DNA of 64,000 nt from positions 1,634 to 65,633 of the forward strand of contig JALTBN010000043.1 in assembly GCA_027075325.1 (NCBI GenBank), given 5' to 3'. A program made the translations under genes and the position numbers. The notes beneath the pieces are model-generated. The model was not told the origin of the DNA and did not search any database. It saw nothing but the letters and a program-made list of their open reading frames with translations. Positions 51,466 to 57,033 of this stretch are shown piece by piece (positions within the stretch are counted from its first letter, which is position 1; each line of letters starts with the position of its first letter). The DNA comes from Thermococcus sp. (lineage in GTDB: Archaea > Methanobacteriota_B > Thermococci > Thermococcales > Thermococcaceae).

Positions 51466-52695
51466 ATGCTGGCTTATGAGGCAGTTGTCCTCATCGTTGG
51501 TTCCATCATGGGGATTCTAACGTCATACACCGATATCAAGACCGGTTTCATCTTTGACAACCATGCTTTTCCCCTCTTGGGCATAATCGAACGCATTAGA
51601 GGAGCGACAGAGGAAGGAGAAGAGGAGGAACTTCCCCTCCCCCAGTGGGTTGGAAAGGTTATTGTTCCGGCAGCTGAAATCGGGATTCTCCTCTACCTTT
51701 ACCTCGGGCTCAGCAAAGGAAGCATTCTCCTGGCCTTATCGGGTTTAATAGGGCTGATTGTTGGCTTTATCCTAGGCATGGTTCTCTACTACGCCGGGGC
51801 GTGGGCCTCTGGAGATGTCGTGGTTCTGGCGGCCTTCTCAGCGCTCCTGCCCCTCCCCCTGAGCTATGCGAGGGTGGTGGCTCCATACGAAAGCACCTAT
51901 CCCCTTTACCCACTTTCTATCCTCTTCAACAGCATCCTCGCAGTTTTTCCGTTCCTCTTCTTTTACGCACTCGGCGTCCTCCTGGTGAGGAAGGAAACGG
52001 AGGAGCTCAAGGCAGTCTTCACCGAAGGGCTCACTTTGACTCTGGAGGTCTCTCTGTGGATAATGGCCGGGATAGGGTTGGCTATAGTCCTCGAGAACCG
52101 CGGGATTGCACTCAACCCGGTAATTAAGTACCTCCTCACTCTGGCCATCATAGCAGTGTTCGGGAAGTACAAGAAGGCGGGAGACGCAGTGGGTCTCGCC
52201 GTACTGGGATACCTCATCTACGCGGGTGGCGCCGATGTAGTCTACGCTTACGGGAAGCTCTTCGCGGTTCTGTACGTCTTCAAGGTGTTCTTCTCGGTCG
52301 TTAAGGTTCTCCGCAAAAAGGCCCTCGTGGAGGAGGTTCCCGTGGAGGAGCTCAGGGAATGGGATATACTGGGGGAGACAATATACATCAACGGAGATGA
52401 CATCGTCCGCGACAGGCGTGATTTCTTCGAGGTTCTGAAGGAGGCTGTGCTCTCCGGGAACTTAAAGGCCCTCTCAGGCACCCAGCGGGACGTTATAGCA
52501 TCCCCAAGCGCTGAGGGACTCAGTGGGGAGCAGATAGAAAAGCTCAAAGAATTCGTCCGCGAAGGGAAGCTGGAAAACAGGTTTCTCAGAAAGAAGTCGA
52601 TGCCCTTCGCACCCAGCATCTTCCTCGGTTTTCTCATCTCGGCCCTCTGGGGCGACATCTTCTGGTGGCTGATACTTAAGACGGCAGGCCTCTGA
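51466..52695 (+). CDS. A24 family prepilin peptidase with C-terminal domain
   Basis: 409 aa from ATG 51466 (GGGGATGG upstream); the longer track start lies inside the pilin gene. Membrane aspartyl peptidase: first catalytic Asp in TSYTDIKTGFIFD near residue 22, second in GAWASGDVVVLAAF near 120, where ASGD replaces the common GxGD. About ten membrane segments are followed by a cytoplasmic domain (residues about 280-385, EELREWDILGETIYINGDDI) and a final helix. This longer form with a C-terminal domain is known in Thermococcales and in EppA-like enzymes. Probably cleaves the neighbouring class III pilin. Confidence 0.9.
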   Translation: MLAYEAVVLIVGSIMGILTSYTDIKTGFIFDNHAFPLLGIIERIRGATEEGEEEELPLPQWVGKVIVPAAEIGILLYLYLGLSKGSILLALSGLIGLIVGFILGMVLYYAGAWASGDVVVLAAFSALLPLPLSYARVVAPYESTYPLYPLSILFNSILAVFPFLFFYALGVLLVRKETEELKAVFTEGLTLTLEVSLWIMAGIGLAIVLENRGIALNPVIKYLLTLAIIAVFGKYKKAGDAVGLAVLGYLIYAGGADVVYAYGKLFAVLYVFKVFFSVVKVLRKKALVEEVPVEELREWDILGETIYINGDDIVRDRRDFFEVLKEAVLSGNLKALSGTQRDVIASPSAEGLSGEQIEKLKEFVREGKLENRFLRKKSMPFAPSIFLGFLISALWGDIFWWLILKTAGL

Positions 52696-52697
52696 AA

Positions 52698-52754
52698 GGG
52701 TCGGGGAAGGGCGTGCTCATCACACATCAGCAAAGCAAAAGCTCGTCATCCCCC
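52698..52754 (-). ncRNA. C/D box guide sRNA (2'-O-methylation guide)
   Basis: Minus strand, 5' to 3': GGGGG, C box ATGACGA (one change from RTGATGA), 12-nt guide GCTTTTGCTTTG, D' box CTGA, 3-nt spacer TGT, perfect C' box GTGATGA, 12-nt guide GCACGCCCTTCC, D box CCGA (one change from CTGA), CCC. The 5' GGG and 3' CCC can form the terminal stem. Both guides have the archaeal 12-nt length. It lies in the 78-nt gap between convergent genes, 19 nt downstream of the HAD gene's stop on the same strand, so it could be released from that transcript. Confidence 0.75.
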
Positions 52755-52773
52755 TTCTCTTCCGTTGTGGGAA

Positions 52774-53397
52774 TCACCCCTCAATGAGACCACGGATTAT
52801 CTCAACGACCTCTTGAAGGCTCTCGACAACGTGGTCCCCCTCAACACCTTCGTGTGGGTTTATGGCTATGCTGACGTCTGCCTCACTGAACATTGCTATG
52901 TCGTTGTAGCCGTCTCCAACGGCGACCGTGAGCTCCGGCTGCAACTTCTCCTTCAGGCGGCGGAGAATTGGTCCCTTTCCAGTGAAATCTACGTGGGGAT
53001 AAACCTCACCAGTTAGAACCCCATTCTCATCAAAAACGAGCTCGTTAGCGAACACGTAATCCGCCCCAAGCTCCCGCCCCACCCTGCTCGCAAGGCACAT
53101 CAAGCCGCTGCTCAGAATGGCGGTTTTAAATTCGTTTCTCCTCAGGAACTCAAAGAGCTCCTCCGCCCCCTCCATGTACTCAACGGATTGCACCCACTCC
53201 AGTATCTCCTCCTTCAGGTGTCCCCTCCACAGGGAGGCATCCAGTCTGGCCCACGTTGCGTAGTCGATTTCACCGTCGAAGAACATCCGGGCATACTCGC
53301 TGCCCTTGTTCCACGTTCCAAATCGCTTGTGGAGCTCCACCCATCCCGAAACGGATTTAACGAGGGTTCCCTCAAGATCGAAAGCCGCCAGTCTCAT
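52774..53397 (-). CDS. HAD-IB phosphatase, phosphoserine-phosphatase-like
   Basis: 207 aa. HAD motif I FDLEGTLVK (Asp nucleophile; the second acidic position is Glu), motif II AILSSGLMCLA, motif III lysine in FTGKGPILRRL, motif IV VAVGDGYNDIAMF. The helical cap between residues 15 and 75 is of the C1 type seen in SerB. DLEGT in place of DxDGT is common in Thermococcales members. Substrate could be phosphoserine or another small phosphate ester. GGTGAG precedes the ATG. Confidence 0.87.
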   Translation of the reverse strand: MRLAAFDLEGTLVKSVSGWVELHKRFGTWNKGSEYARMFFDGEIDYATWARLDASLWRGHLKEEILEWVQSVEYMEGAEELFEFLRRNEFKTAILSSGLMCLASRVGRELGADYVFANELVFDENGVLTGEVYPHVDFTGKGPILRRLKEKLQPELTVAVGDGYNDIAMFSEADVSIAINPHEGVEGDHVVESLQEVVEIIRGLIEG

Positions 53398-56702: not shown

Positions 56703-56854
56703 GATTTCGCCCCTATGAAAATAGGATTTCATACCTCTTAAAAACTTTGCGTCATTCCCCACCGATATTGGAAGTTACCTGAAATATTTTTAATTTATGT
56801 GGCAACTTTTCAAAAATATCACCAAAATCTGAGCTAAATTGGCAATTATGTCAA

Positions 56855-56981
56855 TGTGGGCCGGGTACAGAGGCCCGCGTTCATCGCTCGCGCGGGTGGA
56901 TGCTCCCGGCCCTGTGGGCTCGGCGTGAGCACTCCCCGCTCACAAAACCCGATGCCTTGCGGGGGCGGATTAACCGAGCCC
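56855..56981 (-). ncRNA. Two-hairpin H/ACA guide RNA
   Basis: GC-rich island in an AT-rich gap, read on the minus strand. Hairpin I: lower stem GGGCTCGG/CCGAGCCC (perfect 8 bp), internal loop TTAATCCGC against AGTGCTCACG, upper stem CCCCGC/GCGGGG, then ACA. Hairpin II: lower stem GGGCCGGG/CCCGGCCC (perfect 8 bp), loop AGCATCCA against CCTCTGTA, upper stem CCCGCG/CGCGGG, apical loop CGAGCGATGAA resembling an L7Ae K-loop, then ACA. ACA directly after both lower stems and a 16-nt distance from upper stem to ACA in hairpin II fit archaeal pseudouridylation guides. About 30 nt of leader probably precede hairpin I, with an extra small stem (GAGGGGAC/GTCTCCTC). Confidence 0.72.
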
Positions 56982-57033
56982 ATGAGGAGACGGAATGTCC
57001 CCTCACTGTCGGCAGAGTGGGGTGGAAAAGAGA

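Follow-up and report, generated by a model that had tools for sequence, protein, structure and literature searches.

A C/D box guide RNA of the sR9 family without its H/ACA half, in a convergent gene gap of a Thermococcus-group archaeon

The window analyzed here, a stretch of 64,000 nucleotides (64 kb) from Thermococcus sp., contains a small element laid out as an archaeal C/D box sRNA, between two genes that run toward each other. An earlier reading, made from the sequence alone, had placed it in a convergent gap, and the gap is real: an A24-type prepilin peptidase gene on the plus strand ends at 52695 and a HAD hydrolase gene on the minus strand ends at 52774. The 3' stem of the element abuts the stop codon of the peptidase gene on the opposite strand, while about 20 nt separate the element from the stop codon of the hydrolase gene, which encodes a phosphatase. 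The features of the locus are as follows.

51466..52695, plus strand: A24-type prepilin peptidase, convergent (Pfam PF06819, Arc_PepC)
52690..52760, minus strand: sR9 C/D box sRNA gene (from the sequence, the RF00065 match and orthologues)
52754..52698, minus strand: sR9 core, with a possible extended terminal stem GAAGGGG/CCCUUUC
52743..52749, minus strand: C box AUGACGA, with C for U at position 5 of the consensus RUGAUGA
52731..52742, minus strand: D' guide GCUUUUGCUUUG, complementary to 23S over 11 Watson-Crick pairs, with Gm predicted at nt 207
52727..52730, minus strand: D' box CUGA (from the sequence and the orthologue table)
52717..52723, minus strand: C' box GUGAUGA (from the sequence and the orthologue table)
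52705..52716, minus strand: D guide GCACGCCCUUCC, complementary to 23S over 10 Watson-Crick pairs, with Gm predicted at nt 55
52701..52704, minus strand: D box CCGA, with C for U at position 2 of the consensus CUGA
52774..53397, minus strand: HAD-family hydrolase (phosphatase), co-directional with and immediately 5' of sR9 (Pfam PF00702/PF12710)

Read along the minus strand from 52754 to 52698, the element is GGGG-GAUGACGA-GCUUUUGCUUUG-CUGA-UGU-GUGAUGA-GCACGCCCUUCC-CCGA-CCC. Four boxes, two 12-nt guides, a 3-nt spacer and a G/C terminal stem, in the order given by the sequence-only reading, are borne out. Boxes follow each other as C, D', C', D, as in archaeal C/D box sRNAs, the guides end at the D and D' boxes, and the D'-C' spacer, counting C' as GUGAUGA, measures 3 nt, which makes a short k-loop. 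D' and C' match their consensus exactly; C and D each depart from it by one base, at position 3b:3n of the kink-turn. A relaxed four-box pattern finds this single site on both strands of the window, and on average 0.01 sites in 100 dinucleotide shuffles of it. Folding the strand by itself yields no information (z -1.0), as is expected for a C/D RNA. Genes for fibrillarin, Nop5 and an L7Ae-type protein are present in the genome from which the element comes (G000).

The element matches the Rfam family RF00065 (snoR9) with 43.3 bits (E 7e-9, in a search thresholded on E-value), in an alignment spanning both guides and all four boxes. The model describes a composite RNA, in which a 5' H/ACA hairpin with an ACA box, known as Pab21, precedes the C/D part; this hairpin part does not fit the local sequence, and the score stays below the curated cut-off of 90 bits because the 5' half of the model is absent here. 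Both guide cores, CUUUUGCUUU and CACGCCCUUC, are identical to the RF00065 consensus. In P. abyssi, snoR9 lies at 230,449-575(-) and the H/ACA Pab21 at 230,517-575, in one transcript and in agreement with the transcriptome (PMC4652768). Exactly these coordinates are returned, by RF00065 and by a Pab21 covariance model, in one of the genomes searched (G004), which is therefore very probably P. abyssi itself. For three Pyrococcus species and for T. kodakarensis, sR9 has been described as a C/D plus an H/ACA sRNA (PMC2241582).

The comparison with known Pyrococcus and Thermococcus sR genes, suggested along with the sequence-only reading, thus identifies an orthologue of a known archaeal guide, on the strength of the RF00065 match, the DNA search of the family and the published P. 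abyssi coordinates; what had been observed is confirmed, and its interpretation is supported. Guides, box order, spacing and 23S targets are all shared with the sR9 of Pyrococcus and T. kodakarensis (RF00065; PMC2241582, PMC4652768). In contrast, the known composite gene carries Pab21 at its 5' end and mostly a TATA-like box upstream, both missing from the present copy, which also lies on the phosphatase side of the gap. Other Pyrococcus C/D sRNAs, namely sR30, sR12 and sR39, have the same architecture and a weak box signal in common with the element, but their guides differ and their scores (17-19 bits) fall well short of cut-offs of 38-50. The kind of RNA is ordinary, belonging to a known family, while its local arrangement is unusual. 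At the Rfam gathering threshold, the only match in the whole window is the HgcF (Pab35) H/ACA guide, at 56844..57013 on the minus strand (153 bits), about 4 kb from sR9.

Both guides find their targets in the 23S rRNA of the same genome, whose gene (locus L001, start at 646) lies on contig C7 and begins 646 bases from the contig end. The D guide forms 10 contiguous Watson-Crick pairs with GAAGGGCGTG (L001:697-706, nt 52-61 of 23S), and its fifth nucleotide from the box pairs with the G at L001:700, nt 55. A target in the 5' region of archaeal 23S, with the G five nucleotides from the D box as the modified base, had been proposed in the sequence-only reading; the region was the correct one, and the pairing register puts the predicted base at nt 55. 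The match is also longer than the 9 nt, correctly spaced on rRNA or tRNA, that the proposal had taken as its minimum. The D' guide pairs with AAAGCAAAAGC (L001:849-859, nt 204-214) over 11 Watson-Crick pairs, and its fifth nucleotide faces the G at L001:852, nt 207. This second target had been overlooked, as had the identity with sR9 and the usual fusion to an H/ACA RNA. What had been a guess is thereby settled, in that the sRNA and the proposed 23S target both hold up and each of the two guides fits. Position 1 of the guide is mismatched at both targets. Shuffling the 23S sequence 200 times gave the D guide a run of 10 three times and the D' guide a run of 11 not once.

Neither target sequence varies among the 42 family genomes inspected, whose 23S genes were located by DNA search. 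Throughout 78 parsed sR9 orthologues the guide cores are likewise invariant, apart from a C to U change in the D guide of G060 that still allows a G-U pair, whereas the spacer between D' and C' ranges from 3 to 22 nt; invariant guides next to a variable spacer are the pattern expected from a working double guide. Spacers of 15-22 nt are found at loci L088, L090, L092, L093, L094, L095, L097 and L098 (genomes G039, G026, G041, G029, G055, G065, G045 and G034, respectively); they mostly contain a G/C hairpin, which would convert the internal k-loop into a standard kink-turn.

By DNA search of 94 Thermococcaceae genomes, about 86 have an sR9 match, a count that includes one, in G047, which is not sR9 but a different sRNA resembling sR39. 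A covariance model search at a looser threshold finds sR9 in 88 of the 94, and the RF00065 model scores above its cut-off in 59. No sR9 was found in the draft genomes G046, G047, G051, G053, G056 and G064, nor in G035, a single contig, 99% complete, in which both 23S targets are intact (L149); in the latter, the two modifications would be either dispensable or otherwise served. No plasmid copy of sR9 was found.

In most relatives, sR9 is preceded by a hairpin of about 59 nt ending in ACA, the H/ACA guide Pab21, in which eight predicted pairs show two-sided changes (alignment A2). A Pab21 covariance model, built and run on the family genomes, finds no such hairpin in this genome, either upstream of sR9 or elsewhere in the assembly. 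Its sole weak hit there (21.9 bits) is HgcG/Pab40, as is a weak match in the sister genome G042; weak matches in G051, G056 and G085 are HgcF/Pab35. The assembly is estimated by the tool used as 99.99% complete, with 5.7% contamination; no 16S rRNA gene is recognizable in it (RF01959), though the 23S gene is present, and this probably reflects an assembly gap. Pab21 is absent from the assembly, with a slight possibility that an assembly gap accounts for this.

Loss or decay of the hairpin extends to the sister G042, to genera g2, g4 and g6, and to G055/G065, G057, G067 and G092; mapped by parsimony onto a tree built from both flanking proteins, it amounts to 8 changes. Remnants precede an intact sR9 at three loci, truncated at L074 (G092) and eroded at L004 (G067) and L084 (G057). 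At the sequence level, the recurrent loss of the hairpin is firm. The pocket sequences of Pab21, UUCC and CCCGCC, fit GGAA-UU-GGCGGG in 16S rRNA, which is present in the relatives inspected, and a pseudouridine is predicted at the first U of GGAAUUGGCGGG; this target is our own reading of the relatives' 16S, rather than a published assignment. With the loss of Pab21, the 16S pseudouridine is predicted to be missing in this lineage.

The gap between the hydrolase and peptidase genes houses sR9 in most relatives outside Pyrococcus, this genome included; in Pyrococcus, about 1.5 kb around sR9 revealed neither gene. The RNA runs in the direction of the peptidase gene in 64 genomes and in that of the hydrolase gene in 10, among them the present one, where sR9 is thus reversed relative to the majority. 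Orientation requires 3 changes by parsimony, against a mean of 9.5 with shuffled labels. Support is 0.999 for a flipped clade of seven genomes including this one and 0.995 for G093 with g5, but 0.149 for the grouping of G030 with G001, so that at least two flips are well supported and a third is tentative. A narrow literature search found neither a mechanism for such flips nor a prior report of them.

In nearly all genomes bearing the hairpin, a TATA-like hexamer lies 25-30 nt upstream of it. Among the copies without an intact hairpin (g2, g4, g6, G042, G055, G065 and G092), in which the C/D half is kept and Pab21 lost or decayed, those of g2, g6 and most of g4 have a TATA-like box at a similar distance before sR9 itself. 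In contrast, no TATA-like box was found upstream of sR9 in this genome, G042, G055 and G065, where the RNA follows the coding match of the upstream gene by 22, 35, 2 and 2 nt, respectively. Since hairpin and TATA-like box are both gone and the RNA lies about 20 nt behind the phosphatase gene, sR9 is here probably released from the phosphatase mRNA; in G042, G055 and G065, too, it would be released from the mRNA of the gene upstream.

The two off-consensus bases face each other, since position 5 of the C box is opposed to position 2 of the D box (3b:3n); the pair is C-C here, against the usual U-U. Among 80 orthologues, all 25 copies with C at position 2 of the D box have C or G at position 5 of the C box, and of the 40 with A or U at the latter position none has that C. 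The inner boxes show a similar tendency: of 19 copies with C at position 2 of D', 14 have C or G at position 5 of C', and of the other 61 just one does. Kinship among the genomes keeps these counts from being independent, but the tree shows several origins of the changes. According to the kink-turn folding rules, C at 3b favours ion-driven folding, and G:C at -1b:-1n and 4b:4n disfavours it (PMC4382518, PMC5689011). Ion-driven folding, considered for sR9 from its 3b, is countered by G:C at both of these positions, and a normal L7Ae-dependent kink-turn is therefore expected.

Taken together, in this Thermococcus-group archaeon the element is almost certainly the C/D box guide RNA sR9, which would be transcribed and assembled with L7Ae, Nop5 and fibrillarin. 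The D guide would pair with nt 52-61 of 23S rRNA and the D' guide with nt 204-214, and fibrillarin would add a 2'-O-methyl group opposite the fifth guide base from each D box, at G55 and G207. Both targets are near the 5' end of 23S, some 150 nt from each other, so that a single particle may in addition tether the two segments while the rRNA folds. Cleavage at the 3' end of the transcript of the upstream phosphatase gene would probably release the RNA itself, possibly followed by circularization.

It is very improbable that sR9 is instead decaying here, no longer assembling into a working particle after the loss of its promoter and H/ACA partner. Such a fate could be read from its off-consensus C and D boxes, from the missing promoter and hairpin, and from the outright loss of sR9 in the complete relative G035, but both guides and the D' and C' boxes are intact, and the sister G042 has the same arrangement, again with intact guides. 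The changes in C and D, moreover, match each other, C-C replacing U-U, and are seen again in many relatives whose guides are intact, so that the off-consensus boxes are no evidence of decay.

Kink-turn elements are able to act in cis on mRNAs. Such action has been raised for other snoRNA candidates of T. kodakarensis (PMC4247193), and the position of sR9 directly behind a stop codon would suit a 3' UTR element of the phosphatase mRNA, either a terminator or an L7Ae kink-turn site, rather than a methylation guide. That the element is of this sort, or a chance C/D-like sequence, is scarcely credible, given that the RNA is conserved on the other strand, behind the other gene, and in Pyrococcus with neither gene found within 1.5 kb, that conservation is concentrated in the guides, both of which match 23S, and that about 0.01 four-box patterns are expected per window.

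For the family as a whole, we lean, with modest conviction, to the view that a composite H/ACA-C/D gene has been repeatedly dismantled within a single archaeal family. The gene would have shed its H/ACA half several times, and in some lineages its promoter as well; the C/D half would persist as an sRNA borne in a 3' UTR, would have been inverted independently inside a single convergent gap, and would let its terminal kink-turn drift through matched 3b:3n exchanges, from U-U to C-C or to a Watson-Crick pair. The sR9 gene thus offers a small test case of how guide RNA genes change, with the loss of a partner, an apparent switch from a promoter to mRNA read-through, inversion in place and compensated kink-turn mismatches.
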